From Eubacteriaceae bacterium (GTDB lineage: Bacteria; Bacillota; Clostridia; Lachnospirales; Lachnospiraceae), in contig CAJTDQ010000003.1 of NCBI GenBank assembly GCA_910574895.1, positions 62,001 through 126,000 of the forward strand: a DNA stretch of 64,000 nucleotides, read 5' to 3'. A program made the translations under genes and the position numbers. Below the pieces are notes generated by a model. It was not told where the DNA came from, searched no databases, and saw nothing but the letters and a program-made list of their open reading frames with translations. Shown piece after piece: positions 28,558-63,079 of the stretch (its first letter is position 1; the number at the start of each line of letters is the position of its first letter).

Positions 28558-29586
28558 ATGACCCGATTAAATAAAAAAAAGATAGCAGTATTAGGTTTAA
28601 CAGCAGTTATGAGTGCAACGCTGTTTTCAGGGTGTAAAGTAAGCAGTGATACTCCTATTCTTGGAAAAATATTAGGACTTCACAGTGATGAAATTTTTGA
28701 AGTAGACCGTCTTGTCTGTTCAGATAATGAATACAAGCTGGTATTTATGAATTATGTGAATAAATATAAAAAAGATTTTGGTGGTGAAATTAACTGGGAA
28801 GCACAAATTGATAAAGATACAACTTTAAAAGACTTTATTATGGAAAAGGTCAAAGAAGATATTTCTGTAAAATATATCCTTTCAGCTATGGCAGAGACCG
28901 AGAGAGTAAAACTGGATAAGGAAGATATGAAGTCTATCAACGGTATGGTTGAAGATTATTATGGGTCATTAAGTGAAGAGGAAAAAGAATATTTTGACTC
29001 GGATATGGATGTGGTTATAAGCGTGTATACCAATTACTATTTGGCAGATAAAGTATATAATAAGGCAACCGAAACTGTTGGAGATGATATCAGTGAGGAA
29101 GATGCAAGAGTAGCGAAAATACAATATATCAGAATGTCATCAGAGAACACTTCAGAAACGGAGATTGTTTCAAAACTTACATCAATAGCGAAAGATGTAA
29201 ATGCGCAGAAAAAAGATTTTGCCAGAGAAGCAAAACAGCTTAGTGAGGATGATTCGGTAGAGCGAATTGTTAAGAAAAATGAGGTAAAGACAAAACTGGA
29301 ATCAGAAGCATTTAATGTAAAGAAAGAAAAAACGAGTAAAGTTATAAAAGATGGAACGGATTATTATCTCATTTATTGTGTTGATAATTATATGAAAGAT
29401 GAGACTACAGCGAATAAAGCAGAAATGATTAAATCCGCAAAAAAGGCTGTATTTAAAAAGAAATATGATTCTTTCTTAAAAGATACAGATTATGATTTCA
29501 ATACATCGGAATGGGAGGATATTGTGCCGGAAGATGTAGAAAATACAAAGACCAGTAGTTTGCTGGAAGTATATGCAAATAGATAA
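28558..29586 (+). CDS. SurA/PrsA-like extracytoplasmic lipoprotein
   Basis: This 342-residue lipoprotein has the lipobox LFSGC (Cys about residue 26). The long helical N-terminal region resembles SurA-N chaperone domains, and the C-terminal part occupies the position of a PPIC rotamase (about 190-300) but shows no clear catalytic residues. It probably helps secreted proteins fold at the outer face of the membrane. GGAGG precedes the ATG. Only 46 bp separate it from the HAD gene. A long inverted-repeat element begins 5 bp after its stop. Confidence 0.65.
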   Translation: MTRLNKKKIAVLGLTAVMSATLFSGCKVSSDTPILGKILGLHSDEIFEVDRLVCSDNEYKLVFMNYVNKYKKDFGGEINWEAQIDKDTTLKDFIMEKVKEDISVKYILSAMAETERVKLDKEDMKSINGMVEDYYGSLSEEEKEYFDSDMDVVISVYTNYYLADKVYNKATETVGDDISEEDARVAKIQYIRMSSENTSETEIVSKLTSIAKDVNAQKKDFAREAKQLSEDDSVERIVKKNEVKTKLESEAFNVKKEKTSKVIKDGTDYYLIYCVDNYMKDETTANKAEMIKSAKKAVFKKKYDSFLKDTDYDFNTSEWEDIVPEDVENTKTSSLLEVYANR

Positions 29587-29591
29587 ACTTT

Positions 29592-29887
29592 GGTTTGTTG
29601 AGGAGTGACTTTCCTGCTGAATCTAATACAGAGAGAATACATTCACCTCATTACTTGAACATTTACTAAAAAGAAAACATAGAATTAATATCTAAAGTAC
29701 CGACTTCATCTTCGAAAAAATCCTGATGATTTTTTCTCAGGTAAGTCTTAAGATTTGATTTTGAAAATCAAATCTTAACTTGATATTAATTCTATGTTTT
29801 CTTTTATAAATGTAATCAAGTAATTCAAGTTCCTGTATTCTCTCTGTATTTGCTTTCAGCAGTGAAATGCCCTAACTTCTACAAACC
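29592..29887. repeat. Long imperfect inverted repeat, element 1
   Basis: Arms 29592-29692 and 29782-29887 pair with roughly three-quarters identity by eye, including uninterrupted blocks of about 24 bp next to the centre and 17 bp further out. The 89 bp centre holds two nested hairpins: AAAAAATC/GATTTTTT (29715-29735) and a 15 bp perfect palindrome (29748-29778). The outer end reads GGTTTGTTGAGG, matching the end of element 2. There is no ORF inside. It resembles a MITE or a structured RNA. Confidence 0.75.
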
Positions 29888-30065
29888 CGAATCTGTCAAA
29901 TGTGAAAGTACGGGCTGTCTGTCCATGCTTTTTTGTCTAACAAATTTAATTTTGTGGGGATGAAGCCTTGGCATATATGTGGGAATATTTAAAAATCGTG
30001 ACGAATCATATGTATCCAGAGGATTTTGCACCAAAATCCGGACTTGGCTGATTAATAAAAGTATA

Positions 30066-30104
30066 TTACATATATATCTACCTAAAAACTAGATATATAT
30101 GTAA
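30066..30104. repeat. AT-rich 15 bp perfect hairpin
   Basis: TTACATATATATCTA pairs exactly with TAGATATATATGTAA across a 9 nt loop. A weaker related hairpin (ATTACATAT/ATATGTAAT) follows at 30138-30179. Neither has a U-tract. Confidence 0.6.
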
Positions 30105-30347
30105 AAAGTGTTTGAAATTTATAGCAGATGAATACATATTACATATCTACTACGAAAAATAAGAATTAGTATATGTAATTTCGTATAGTAAAGCGGAAAA
30201 AACGATTGAAAATACATTGGAAAACTAAAGAATAAATAACTTTATATATGTAAATTTTAAATCTGTTTTGTGGCAAGATGGTGCACTCTTTGTACACATC
30301 ATGCTGGCAACGAAATGCCGCCGTCACAATAATTACAATTTATAAGT

Positions 30348-30629
30348 TTGCAATTTGTGGTGGTGGGAAGAGATATAAAAGGATACACGTTGGAAACATT
30401 GAATTTCATAAACGAATTTGTATAGAAAAAAGAAGTACGTAATTAAAACTAAAATTTGATTTCCGAATCAAATTTTAAGGATTCACGGAGGAGAATTCAA
30501 ATAAAGAATTCTCCGTAGTTGTATCCTGTGTTTTAAATTACTTACTTCTTTTTTATATCTACAAATGTTTATGAAATTCAGTTTCCAAGTGTATCCTTTT
30601 ATACTCAAACCACCTCGACAAACCGCAAT
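30348..30629. repeat. Long imperfect inverted repeat, element 2
   Basis: Arms 30348-30444 and 30536-30629 pair with high identity by eye over about 95 bp. The centre holds AAAATTTGATT/AATCAAATTTT (30451-30476) and GGAGAATTC/GAATTCTCC (30490-30514). Reading the right end on the minus strand gives GGTTTGTCGAGG, nearly the same as the left end of element 1, and both share a central ATTTGATT...AATCAAAT hairpin. It abuts the stop codon of the YfhO gene. Confidence 0.75.
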
Positions 30630-33314
30630 TTATTTCTTTTGTTTTTTGCCAGCTGTCATGATAAATGCTGTAATATTATCTTTGAATATTAATCCTAAGA
30701 ATGCAAGCAGACATAAAATACTGATTGTTAGTCCACTTCCAAATCCTTGTGGAGTATATTTAAATGTTACTTCATGTTGACCGCCATCTACTAATACGCC
30801 GATAAACGCACCATCACAAATAGGAGTAATTGCAGATTCATTTCCATCAACAGAAACCTTCCAGCCTTTGTCGTAAGGGATTGATGTGTACATAATACCC
30901 TGTTGTGATGCAGTAACTGTACCGCTGATTTTTGTATCAGTGCGTTCAGTAACAGTATATGGATTTGCGTTTAAAAGTGCAAAATCTTCCTGCCATGCTT
31001 CTGTATCAAAGGCGTATGCGTAACATGCAGAAATTGCCTGGCCATCGCCTGCAGTAATTGTAATCGTAGAATCAGCAGTTACATTTCCTAAATGACAGAT
31101 ATAATTCTGATTTGTTGAAGAAAATGATTTGGTCGTCGTAGTAGAAGTCGAACCGTTCTGCTCTTCGATAATATTGCCGTTAGTTACAGTAGCAGTAAGC
31201 GTTTCAGATGATGTTGTACAGTAGAAGTAAACATCAAAAGTCTTCTGATTTGGATCCGGTGTGTATTTGTCATTTGCCTCTAAAGCATACTTGGCACTGA
31301 AGGTTCCAACAGCAGATGATTTTAACTGATGGAAAATATTTTTGCCACCATTTACAGCTGTTCGTACAAAGTTATTTTGTGTAGCAAATGGATTTCCGCT
31401 TTTCTTATCCCAGCTGGCTTCAGTACCGGTGTTCATCATGAATCCAAGTGGAAGTGTATTATTATATTTATATAATTTTAATGTACTCTGACCACTTTTT
31501 GTTTTATAAGTCTTCTGATTAACAAGTGTCATATTGTTTGGAAGAGAACAGGAGCCGGTTGCATATTCATATTTAATAGACTGCATTGCAGCAGTTAATG
31601 GTGTGTGCCCATAATATGAGTAGGCGTTGAATGATGTCTGCATACCAATTTCATCATAATAATCCTGTATTGCGGCAGAAGCCACGGATGAAAATGTTGA
31701 AACACTGTCATAACCGAAACGGGCGCCATCATTTCTTGTAGCATGATATTCTCCTTCTGTCCGGTAGAAATTAACTCCCTCAGCTTTTGCCATATCTTCA
31801 GCAGCTTTGTTTAACTCGTCATAGGTAGCTCTTGCTTCGTAATATCCACTACGTGAAGAAGTACTAGGAATACCTGTAACGCTCATGTTTAAAGTTAACT
31901 CACAGAAAACCAATAGTATTAATAAATACGTAAAGAATGCTTTCATGTCATGATATTTTCTGTAGCAGAAGAATAAAAGTACATACAAACCAATAAAGAA
32001 AATACTAAAGTAAATAATCTTAATGATACTTGTATCTACATCCAGTTCACTAAAGAAACCGGTGTTTTTAAATAATTCCTGTAATACTAATATCAGACCG
32101 ACAGAGGCTCCGGCAGAGCCGATAATCTGTGCCGGTTTAAATTCCCGAATATGAATGAAAGCCTCATAAGCCATTGTGACTATAAGGAAAATATAGAGGA
32201 ATGATTCTCTACACGGCAGACTATTTGGAAAATGTAAACCATGCCAGATATAGTTTGGAATGTTAAAATTAAAACTTAATAACATAATAACGGCAATAAT
32301 TGTTTTGCCGACACGTTCTTTTATGCTGATTTTTTTGCATAACCAGAATAGTGGAATTAAAATAAATACAGCCACAGTACAATAAATGTTCGGGTCATGT
32401 GGATATTTTAAGTCTGCTACAGGTATGCAGATTAATGAACGGAACAGCATATAGAGAATAGAAAAATATTCTTCTAAGGCTTCCGGGAATGATGTATCTG
32501 CTGATTTTGTCATAAGCATGTTAAAGTATTCCGGAAGAATCACACATGCTGCCAGACCGCCACCTAAAATAGAATAGATTGCAAAGTCTTTAAAAGCAAG
32601 TAATCTTGCCTTTAACTGTCCGACATTGGAATCAAAATCAGAAACACAAAGTAAATATATAAAATAGATAACACTGTAAATACACAGCATAATTCCAATA
32701 TAATAATTAGAGAAAATCCCTAGCGCCAGTGCGATACAGTACATTTTATAACGTTTTTCATTTACTAAACGGTCAAGACCAAGAATAATAAATGGAAGCA
32801 GCCACATACAGTCAAGCCACATAATATTCCAGCTGAATGCTGCAAAATATGCTGACAGGGCATAAATCATACCAAAAATTACAGCGTTTATATTTTTACT
32901 ATGGAATTTCTTTGTCAGATAGTAAGTAGTAGCAAATCCTGAAAGTCCCATTTTTAGAATAATGGAAAAACTTACGAAGTCTGCCATATTGCCAGGCCAA
33001 ATAATTGTTAAAAGATTAAACGGACTGGATAAGTAGTAAGCAGCGATTGCCAGAAAGTTCATACCGGAACCGATTTCCCAGGTGTAAAAAAGACTTCCGC
33101 CGCCACGCAATTTGTTTTGCAGGATTTCAAGATATGGTGTGTATTGGTGGTAACAGTCACTTCTAAGGTACATTTCATCTCCGAATGGAAATACACCTTT
33201 AATTAAATACACAACAGTCATTGAAATAACAGGTAGGATAAATGCTAAAAAGTAAAGCTTGTTATCACTACACCATTTTGTAAATGAAAAGTTACTCTGT
33301 TTCTTCATTTTCAT
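30630..33314 (-). CDS. YfhO-family GT-C type membrane glycosyltransferase
   Basis: This 894-residue polytopic protein has about 12-13 transmembrane helices in its first 500 residues and a large extracytoplasmic C-terminal domain, then a final helix near 865-885. The acidic loop FGDEMYLRSDCYHQY after helix 1 is the GT-C-type catalytic region. YfhO of Bacillus decorates lipoteichoic acid using an undecaprenyl-phosphate sugar; the same role is inferred because a GtrA flippase and a GT2 synthase precede it in the operon. The ATG overlaps the gtrA-like 3' end by 23 bp. Confidence 0.85.
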   Translation of the reverse strand: MKMKKQSNFSFTKWCSDNKLYFLAFILPVISMTVVYLIKGVFPFGDEMYLRSDCYHQYTPYLEILQNKLRGGGSLFYTWEIGSGMNFLAIAAYYLSSPFNLLTIIWPGNMADFVSFSIILKMGLSGFATTYYLTKKFHSKNINAVIFGMIYALSAYFAAFSWNIMWLDCMWLLPFIILGLDRLVNEKRYKMYCIALALGIFSNYYIGIMLCIYSVIYFIYLLCVSDFDSNVGQLKARLLAFKDFAIYSILGGGLAACVILPEYFNMLMTKSADTSFPEALEEYFSILYMLFRSLICIPVADLKYPHDPNIYCTVAVFILIPLFWLCKKISIKERVGKTIIAVIMLLSFNFNIPNYIWHGLHFPNSLPCRESFLYIFLIVTMAYEAFIHIREFKPAQIIGSAGASVGLILVLQELFKNTGFFSELDVDTSIIKIIYFSIFFIGLYVLLFFCYRKYHDMKAFFTYLLILLVFCELTLNMSVTGIPSTSSRSGYYEARATYDELNKAAEDMAKAEGVNFYRTEGEYHATRNDGARFGYDSVSTFSSVASAAIQDYYDEIGMQTSFNAYSYYGHTPLTAAMQSIKYEYATGSCSLPNNMTLVNQKTYKTKSGQSTLKLYKYNNTLPLGFMMNTGTEASWDKKSGNPFATQNNFVRTAVNGGKNIFHQLKSSAVGTFSAKYALEANDKYTPDPNQKTFDVYFYCTTSSETLTATVTNGNIIEEQNGSTSTTTTKSFSSTNQNYICHLGNVTADSTITITAGDGQAISACYAYAFDTEAWQEDFALLNANPYTVTERTDTKISGTVTASQQGIMYTSIPYDKGWKVSVDGNESAITPICDGAFIGVLVDGGQHEVTFKYTPQGFGSGLTISILCLLAFLGLIFKDNITAFIMTAGKKQKK

Positions 33315-61558: not shown

Positions 61559-62707
61559 TTATATATTATCTTTTACTGCCTGACTTACAACATCTGCAAC
61601 AACTGGATTAAATGCTTCCGGTAATATGTTTTCTTCGTTTAGTTCTTCATCGGGTACCAATGAAGCGATAGCCAGAGCAGCAGCCAGTTTCATTTCTTCT
61701 GTAATCTGTTTTGCACGGCCTTCCAATGCTCCTTTGAAGATACCTGGGAAGGCTACAACATTATTTACCTGATTAGGAAAATCAGAACGTCCGGTTCCAA
61801 CGACTCTCGCACCGGCAGCTTTTGCCACATCAGGCATAATTTCAGGAACAGGATTTGCCATGGCAAACATAATAGCATCAGTATTCATTGTCTGTACCAT
61901 CTCAGCTGTAACCATGTTTGGTGCAGAAACACCAACAAAAATGTCAGCCCCAACTAATGCGTCAGCTAATTTTCCGTTCATTCCGGAAAGGTTGGTAACT
62001 TCAGCCATTTCTTTCTGGGCCCAGTTTAAATCTTCAATATCTTTTGAGAGAATACCATATAATCCGCAGATTGTGACATCTTTGAAACCATAGTTTAAAA
62101 GAAGTTTGCAGATTGCGATACCGGCAGAACCGTCACCATTGATGACTACTTTACAATCCTCTTTTTTCTTTCCGACTACTTTCAGGGCATTGATAATACC
62201 AGCCAGAACAACGATAGCAGTACCATGCTGGTCATCATGAAAAACAGGGATGTCCAGTCTCTCTTTTAATTTGCTTTCGATTTCAAAACATCTTGGAGCT
62301 GAAATATCCTCCAGATTAATGCCGCCAAAACCGGGAGCAATACGAATAACGGTGTCTATGATTTCATCAGTATCCTGTGTGTCAAGACAAATAGGAACGG
62401 CATTGACGCCGCCAAATTCTTTAAATAATACAGCTTTGCCTTCCATAACAGGCATCGCAGCTTCCGGACCGATATTGCCAAGACCAAGAACTGCACTTCC
62501 GTCGGAGACTACAGCGACAGTATTTGCTTTCCATGTATATTTGTATACATCTTCCCGATTGGCAGCAATCTTTCTGCAAGGTTCTGCAACGCCGGGAGTA
62601 TAAGCGAGGGATAAATCTTCACGTGAGTTTACGTGACATTTTGCCTCAGTGCTTAATTTACCATTTAACTCTTCATGTAATTTTAATGCTTTTTCGTCAG
62701 TTGTCAT
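61559..62707 (-). CDS. NAD(P)-dependent malic enzyme
   Basis: This 382-residue short-type bacterial malic enzyme has SLAYTPGVAEPC, the metal-binding DDQHGTA and the Rossmann INGDGSAGIAI. It oxidatively decarboxylates malate to pyruvate. ATG 62707 follows GGAGG; an in-frame start 33 bp upstream lacks a site. Cofactor preference cannot be judged by eye. The upstream region holds tandem hairpin repeats. Confidence 0.93.
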   Translation of the reverse strand: MTTDEKALKLHEELNGKLSTEAKCHVNSREDLSLAYTPGVAEPCRKIAANREDVYKYTWKANTVAVVSDGSAVLGLGNIGPEAAMPVMEGKAVLFKEFGGVNAVPICLDTQDTDEIIDTVIRIAPGFGGINLEDISAPRCFEIESKLKERLDIPVFHDDQHGTAIVVLAGIINALKVVGKKKEDCKVVINGDGSAGIAICKLLLNYGFKDVTICGLYGILSKDIEDLNWAQKEMAEVTNLSGMNGKLADALVGADIFVGVSAPNMVTAEMVQTMNTDAIMFAMANPVPEIMPDVAKAAGARVVGTGRSDFPNQVNNVVAFPGIFKGALEGRAKQITEEMKLAAALAIASLVPDEELNEENILPEAFNPVVADVVSQAVKDNI

Positions 62708-62734
62708 TTTAATCCTCCAAATTAGAATTTTACA

Positions 62735-62848
62735 GTTCAACCAACAGTTCGAATTTGTTTCGCTCTTCTCGCTGTTATGGCTTATCCGAACGTTCAGCCA
62801 ACAGCTCGAAAATGCTTCACATTTTCTCGCTGTTATGGCTCACCATAT
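62735..62848. repeat. Two tandem 57 bp hairpin-forming repeats
   Basis: Unit 1 (62735-62791) and unit 2 (62792-62848) each start GTTCA[A/G]CCAACAG and contain TCTCGCTGTTATGGCT. Within each, AACAG[C/T] pairs with GCTGTT; unit 2 has an added GAAAATG/CATTTTC stem. Only two copies are present, so it is not a CRISPR. Confidence 0.7.
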
Positions 62849-62909
62849 GACATAAAAATCAAATGTCCAAAATTTTGTAAACAGTTTTTGGACATTTGAT
62901 TTTTATGTC
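62849..62909. repeat. Perfect 24 bp inverted repeat
   Basis: Bases 62849-62872 pair without mismatch with 62886-62909 around a 13 nt loop; the core is ATCAAATGTCC/GGACATTTGAT. It lies upstream of both divergent genes, where a terminator is not expected. Confidence 0.8.
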
Positions 62910-63079
62910 GCATGGCTGAACTGTTATATACATGATATCATAGTTTGAAAATTAACACTATTCTTTTTTAGAATGATATGTTAAAATATGACATAGTAAA
63001 ATTTCTATACATTCTAAAGGGATATCCCCTATATTTCCATAGAAGGTAATTGAATAAAGAAACTTAGGAAGGAGTTTTT

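Follow-up and report, generated by a model that had tools for sequence, protein, structure and literature searches.

A recurrent composite of two giant inverted hairpins occupying gaps between gene ends in a Eubacteriaceae bacterium genome

Introduction

The window analysed here is a stretch of 64,000 nucleotides from a Eubacteriaceae bacterium of the Lachnospiraceae, and it is part of contig C3 of a genome (G000) of 2.48 Mb in 27 contigs. Two convergent genes in this window are separated by two very long hairpins, and the question was what such structures are and why they lie between two stop codons. The initial annotation described the second hairpin, at 30348-30629, as a mirror-placed relative of the first, proposed that they were either two copies of one family or the two ends of one ~1-kb composite, and considered chance similarity of AT-rich DNA as the way in which this could fail. 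Covariation between the elements and a genome-wide copy count were suggested as checks.

Results

Anatomy of the composite repeat

For element 2 the RNA fold reached -121.9 kcal/mol, where shuffled sequences averaged -48.6 (z -17.2), and for element 1 it reached -121.8 kcal/mol (z -16.5). The coordinates given for element 2 were right within a few bases, the unit being 30337/30345-30630. The ends were indeed shared, since the minus strand reads GGTTTGTCGAGG at 30624-30613 and element 1 begins with GGTTTGTTGAGG at 29592, and the ATTTGATT/AATCAAAT arm of the common core hairpin was present in each. The fold z-scores and the repeat matches lay far beyond chance, which excluded a chance AT-rich similarity. 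Both proposals of the initial annotation held: the hairpins are inverted members of one family, whose three-way-junction heads align with compensatory changes, and they are the ends of one composite unit that recurs in the genome. The composite is 1,045 bp long and consists of two inverted giant hairpins flanking a middle of ~450 bp, with 18-bp inverted ends (AATTYCGGTTTGTNGRGG; Table 1). A single unit of ~300 nt is built from a foot and the three-way-junction head, both of them conserved, joined by a stem of roughly 90-130 bp.

As had been noted, each hairpin abuts the stop codon of one of the convergent genes (TAA at 29584-29586 and TTA at 30630-30632), and the last base of unit b is itself part of the second of these, in the minus-strand gene 30630-33314. 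The pair thus fills the gap exactly, from stop codon to stop codon. Seven of the 52 gaps in the window are convergent, and the six others measure 41-86 bp. No canonical intrinsic terminator (a short GC-rich hairpin followed by a T-run) was found in 29560-30660. The nearest record found for the upstream gene, 89% identical, was L071, a metagenome-assembled contig of an "uncultured Eubacterium sp."; two further records belonged to an "uncultured Lachnospiraceae bacterium" and to another "uncultured Eubacterium sp."

Table 1. Positions of the composite repeat, its parts and its flanking genes in the window
Feature	Position	Strand	Remark
Composite repeat, two giant hairpin units inverted plus middle	29586..30630	.	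recurs in own genome, order and ends kept
Left terminal inverted repeat (foot) AACTTTGGTTTGTTGAGG	29586..29603	+	first A completes TAA 29584-29586 of upstream gene
Right terminal inverted repeat AATTGCGGTTTGTCGAGG	30613..30630	-	first A completes stop codon of minus-strand gene
Giant hairpin unit a (element 1)	29592..29887	+	fold and unit alignment
Three-way-junction head of unit a (103-position model R1)	29687..29789	+	head model
Left part of middle	29888..30062	.	conserved in several longer copies
Small hairpin TTACATATATATCTA..TAGATATATATGTAA, first unit of tandem hairpin array	30066..30104	.	
Second array hairpin TTACATATCTA..TATATGTAAT	30139..30179	.	
Part of middle	30055..30322	.	inverted relative to hairpins in L033 (30055-30322) and L040 (30066-30316)
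Giant hairpin unit b (element 2, the 30348-30629 feature)	30337..30630	-	repeat matches, fold, alignment
Three-way-junction head of unit b	30438..30541	-	head model
Upstream flanking gene, weak match to PPIC-type peptidyl-prolyl isomerase	28558..29586	+	outside element; stop codon shared
Downstream convergent gene, YfhO-family membrane protein	30630..33314	-	stop codon shared

Copies in the genome

Element 1 with its flanks gave 30 matches in the own genome, and element 2 with its flanks gave 46, in which the reverse self-matches of the palindrome are counted. The matches of the two elements were mostly adjacent, with order and orientation kept. The copy count yielded 16 elements with both inverted ends, 291-1189 bp long and some of them single-hairpin, and 32 hairpin heads by the head model R1. 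The 16 elements were obtained by pairing foot matches by reading their coordinates. The foot pattern search (up to 3 mismatches) was noisy, with 84 matches against 36 for a reversed control pattern; three partnerless feet (C3:167400, C5:62307 and C10:32516) were left out.

Six longer composites at unrelated loci (the window, L021, L022, L025, L026 and L028) were 83-98% identical pairwise over aligned bases. The small tandem hairpin of the middle (30063-30149) was doubled in L021, L022 and L025. Two hairpins with most of the middle missing were found at L023, L024, L027 and L029, one hairpin or a hybrid at L031, L032, L034 and L035, and an inverted middle at L033 and L040, while an extra insert split unit b at its apex in L028 and L029. 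One further composite (L036/L107, contig C5 near 62300-62960) had its right unit cut at the apex, and the adjoining minus-strand ORF entered that unit and terminated inside it.

Placement at gene ends

Gene placement was read from a purpose-made ORF caller (at least 80 aa) rather than from an annotation. By this measure nine of the 16 elements lay in convergent gaps, seven in tandem gaps and none in divergent gaps. At 12 of 25 stop-facing ends the offset was -1, so that TA of the gene and the first base of the element together form the stop codon (TA|A or TA|G); TAG instead of TAA was formed at the left end of L029. The other 13 ends had offsets of 0, +1 (four ends), +2, 4, 7, 9, 12, 15, 20 and 80. 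The flush stop junction was also observed at several loci of the sister genome G060 (the same genome as G013), for example L110, L111 (both ends), L151 and L156. TA stood at both sides of seven elements and nine lacked this TA/TA pattern; as it partly follows from the TAA stops, it does not prove a true target duplication.

Orthologous gaps in related genomes

In a first set of 44 locus-genome comparisons both flanks were recovered in 20, and the 24 with one flank were judged neither filled nor empty. The family was absent from 18 of the 20, whose matched flanks lay 11-342 bp apart. The remaining two gaps were filled, one (L108) by a family member and the other (L111) by a near-perfect hairpin of 86 bp with the same feet. 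The latter, at 1931-2020 of L111 with the foot AATKCCGGTTTATCGCA, stands where the own genome has a giant hairpin. A second set of 12 comparisons gave 11 with both flanks, of which nine had gaps of 11-159 bp and two had gaps of ~500 bp that were free of the family and filled by hairpin arrays. The element of L027 was absent in G060, where a plain 96-bp terminator gap was present instead, and the window locus corresponded in L072 to ~100 bp with a terminator. Element-free orthologous gaps are thus mostly short, often with an ordinary terminator. G060 carries family members at other loci, sometimes of another subtype or orientation (L108, L110, L112).

Some of these gaps held other sequences. 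In the G060 ortholog of the window gap a HIT-family gene (Pfam) lies inside the convergent gap (L071 1724-2113), preceded by three copies of a TAAATTCCG-like motif. L108 2685-3467 of G060 is an ORF flanked on one side by a giant hairpin and on the other by a hairpin array, and we take its product to be a phosphoribosyltransferase with a fused HTH regulator; the same gap of the own genome holds the L022 composite. The arrays belong to a second repeat family of the genus, with tandem units of ~75 bp made of a palindrome (TTACATATAT..ATATGTAA or TTACACGTATA..TATACGTGTAA) and a spacer, and they were seen at L206 and L209 (G022), L108 3602-3850, L071 2196-2765 and window positions 30063-30179. A hairpin of ~110 bp with the foot-like base AATCCCGATTTGT was observed at L132 2186-2314 (G022), its edge flush with the stop of a presumed CTP synthase gene (pyrG).

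The three-way-junction head

The covariation check supported the structure. When the own-genome units (n=23) were aligned, 32 of 62 predicted pairs were doubly compensated in at least one sequence. For the head alone, in 20 sequences from G000, G060 and G002, 98.7% of 619 cells were paired and 20 of 31 pairs were changed on both sides; the covariation was 0.504 against 0.177 for shuffled alignments and about 0.04-0.113 when the pairing was slid. The count of further pair types in the head was not above shuffles, 173 of 500 of which reached it.

In the genus, R1 heads were found in the own genome, G013 (9), G002 (7) and G019, G001, G020 and G009 (one each), and 16 of the 23 genomes had none. 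A wider scan with stricter filters covered 150 genomes of the same family, one per genus and the own included; nine had matches, eight of them among the 149 genomes of other genera, with 26 matches. The origin of the family as an assembly artefact is unlikely because matches occurred in the single-contig genomes G019, G083 and G094.

All 26 other-genus heads had palindromic arms outside the 103 modelled positions (score 21-152), whereas none of 208 control positions taken from these loci did (maximum 11.5). The stems comprised 32-183 paired positions, with 65 or more in all but one of the 26. These lengths come from a stem-extension script that over-extends in AT-rich loci, and own-genus lengths were therefore not used, the 208-position control covering the other genera. 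By eye, the stem sequences looked unrelated between genera, some being GC-rich, and inner arms can be common to copies inside one such genome. G196 carried two heads ~350 bp apart and on opposite strands, as in the window. For many other-genus copies the nearest gene end was over 50 nt away, and some copies stood in tandem or divergent gaps. In G083 (genus g60) two of four loci had the foot AATTCAGGTTTG either on a stop codon or beside it, and the other two had no GGTTTGY within 450 bp. The single-hairpin copies, the stop codons formed by the ends and the spread to other genera with different stems go beyond the initial annotation.

Drift of the arms and strand bias

At one locus, orthologous giant hairpins were compared in G000 (L038), G060 (L157) and G002 (L165), next to a gene that we read as HIT-family. 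The inner parts were conserved and the outer arms had drifted, with 204-248 of 321-324 aligned bases identical. In each comparison 14-30 pairs were doubly changed and 16-25 broken, and most of the pairing was kept. A derivation of the outer arms from an orthologous terminator stem was considered and dropped, as no similarity was recognisable by eye.

On the gene-sense strand, which reads away from the adjacent stop codon, 20 hairpins had 67 A.C mismatches against 37 G.U pairs (p 0.004). The imbalance was 53 against 26 (p 0.003) in 14 hairpins, after six (L108b, L110b, L112a, L033a, L034a and L035a) had been dropped by hand as redundant. The G.U excess that selection on gene-sense RNA would leave was not seen; the excess runs the other way and speaks against selection on the sense transcript. 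If anything, selection or mutation bias favours the opposite strand.

A run of four compensated pairs distinguished G060 from G000 and was matched in 26 of 2000 shuffles. Only one of six comparisons showed such clustering, which was rejected as proof of template switching. The process itself has been described in the published literature (PMC8794818), and the excess of A.C mismatches over G.U pairs together with the drift of paired arms would fit a maintenance at the DNA level by template switching.

Comparison with known systems

No description of the present family was found in the literature searched, most subscription journals being outside its scope, and the family is apparently undescribed so far. 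Rfam searches of the composite (E up to 5) gave 16 matches, all under gathering scores and mostly to miRNA families, and in 16 related loci the single match was a ZMP/ZTP riboswitch (RF01750, L108 236-320) outside the element. In the gene set downstream of this riboswitch, one gene is presumably involved in purine biosynthesis. The "skipping-rope" motif was considered as a known RNA family and set aside, no relevant literature having been found.

REPs are extragenic palindromes of 20-40 bp with GTAG/CGTC tags, often in inverted pairs, and integron attC sites are long imperfect palindromes near stop codons that act as folded single strands. The present family resembles attC in its long imperfect palindromes close to stop codons; unlike attC, its pairs are inverted and do not run in one direction, and no attC core sites were seen by eye. 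With REP/BIME it shares the extragenic palindromes that are frequently arranged as inverted pairs. However, its units of ~300 bp are about ten times longer, they have another foot (AATTYCGGTTTGT), and no Y1 gene is linked to them. REP/BIME palindromic units are associated with RAYT transposases (PMC2817692, PMC3733652). A search for a partner transposase, limited to Y1 (PF01797), found none, and the Y1 loci lacked element ends. An IS200/REP-RAYT origin was rejected, as neither a unit nor a foot lay near the two Y1 loci of the own genome or a G022 fragment. The two own-genome IS200-type transposase genes are L074 and L076, one of which has a differing N-terminal part.

The terminal inverted repeats expected of copies of a MITE are present, as 18-bp ends in all 16 elements. 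In lifestyle the present family comes closest to the SPRITE repeat of Streptococcus pneumoniae, and in form to REP/BIME. SPRITE is described as an AT-rich, terminator-like and MITE-like interspersed repeat with 30 copies in one genome, enriched in convergent gaps and near gene 3' ends, for which co-option as terminators was proposed (PMC3049150). This general character and the placement in convergent gaps and at 3' ends are common to both families. SPRITEs are typically shorter than 200 bp and have simple AAAA/TTTT ends (PMC3049150); the present family is set apart from this size and these ends by hairpins of ~280-375 nt and 18-bp feet, and further by its three-way-junction head, ~1-kb pairs and junction-formed stop codons. 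The stem-loop sequence families of Cozzuto et al. 2008, such as ERIC, were found systematically and resemble the present family as repeats with structures predictable on both strands; the accessible text of that survey has no Lachnospiraceae in the species listed and no conserved head on variable stems (PMC2267715). In E. coli, inverted repeats immediately after stop codons are reported to be common and mostly to be parts of intrinsic terminators (PMC6060812), and the terms "stop codon" and "convergent" do not occur in a review of prokaryotic MITEs (PMC10969869).

Discussion

We proposed that the composite is a non-autonomous palindromic mobile element with a SPRITE- or BIME-like lifestyle and a much larger size, which substitutes for bidirectional terminators and has probably taken on the formation of 3' ends; with some reserve, this is held to be the probable reading. 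It starts from the repeats, inverted ends, stop-codon junctions, conserved head, arms complementary despite drift and occupation of gaps observed above, and from these we infer mobility in trans and function. The two inverted units, sharing their outer feet, would move or convert together, and single-unit copies exist as well. A trans-acting factor may recognise the head in its folded form, be it single-stranded DNA or RNA. Insertion would be tolerated mainly in gene-end gaps, where a foot landing on TA would restore the stop codon. The hairpin would then replace the bidirectional terminator and provide the 3' end of both convergent messages, made by polymerase halting or by RNase III-type cleavage, and template switching between the arms at replication, with or without selection, could keep the stem paired. 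Since no canonical terminator is found in a gap where a relative (L072) has one, a role of the composite in termination or processing is likely. Several observations sit less well with this proposal. The Y1 search gave no autonomous partner, and TA stood on both sides of seven elements only. The ends are flush with two stop codons and leave no remnant of the old gap, which is not what a simple insertion would give. The gene-sense strand carries more A.C mismatches than G.U pairs, 16-25 pairs are broken in each comparison between species, and two family-free orthologous gaps of ~500 bp hold hairpin arrays. The distances of more than 50 nt and the tandem or divergent sites in other genera also count against it.

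It is also possible, if doubtful, that a mobile head makes its own stem, so that mainly the head (with the foot and the inner arms within a lineage) is heritable as sequence and the long arms of copies in other genera, largely unrelated between genera by eye, are built locally and then kept paired by copying from arm to arm. A landing head would cause the flanking DNA to be copied in inverted orientation, or else would insert at the midpoint of a palindrome already present. The resulting giant hairpin would replace the terminator between gene ends. If the reading is true, this mode of transposition and maintenance would, to our knowledge, differ from that of any other element.

The hairpins could instead be host 3'-end elements and not selfish mobile DNA. 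They would act as giant bidirectional terminators or RNA-processing sites, with selection on RNA structure maintaining them and gene conversion spreading them now and then. Such an origin would account for the stop-to-stop placement with nine of 16 elements in convergent gaps, for locations where relatives often carry ordinary terminators, for orthologous hairpins with compensated arms at one locus of three species and for the strong covariation of the head. It is judged unlikely, however, because near-identical composites at unrelated loci and presence or absence between sister species point to spread, the composite is without a T-tract terminator, the gene-sense strand shows no excess of G.U, and inverted feet and whole 1-kb composites exceed what a terminator needs.

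A scarcity of G.U intermediates in head and stem, together with arms that drift and stay largely paired, would be expected if the pairing had no function and palindromes arose and stayed perfect by template switching and arm-to-arm conversion at replication, in gaps free of selection against them, a process known from the literature (PMC8794818), to which the four-pair run between G060 and G000 (26 of 2000 shuffles) could be ascribed. Still, that account seems improbable: it leaves unexplained a head of one model in nine genera, the shared feet and the copy number, and the clustering was not seen in the other five comparisons. Very improbable is an ordinary large MITE, a miniature derivative of a TA-targeting transposon of the Tc1/mariner/IS630 type. 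Inverted ends and TA flanking both sides of seven elements suggest one, whereas nine of 16 lack the pattern, the element replaces the old gap and is not simply added to it, and the outer arms in other species look locus-specific by eye, unlike transposon ends.

Long palindromes are generally expected to be cut or lost in bacteria through SbcCD. A loss of SbcCD as the cause of palindrome survival was considered and found unsupported, as the SbcD of the own genome scored over the curated cut-off. SbcD matches were present in 21 of 23 genomes, 11 of them over the cut-off, and absent from the 65%-complete G013. Yet ~30 palindromes of roughly 300 bp persist in this genome, which encodes an SbcD homologue. 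In several related genera the family preserves its structure at gene-end gaps largely irrespective of sequence. Two questions become testable in this system: whether template switching or selection keeps the arms of long hairpins complementary, and by what route a selfish repeat can come to control the formation of transcript 3' ends. The system also shows that a whole gap between gene ends can be exchanged, up to the stop codons on either side, and that such gaps can house additional genes.
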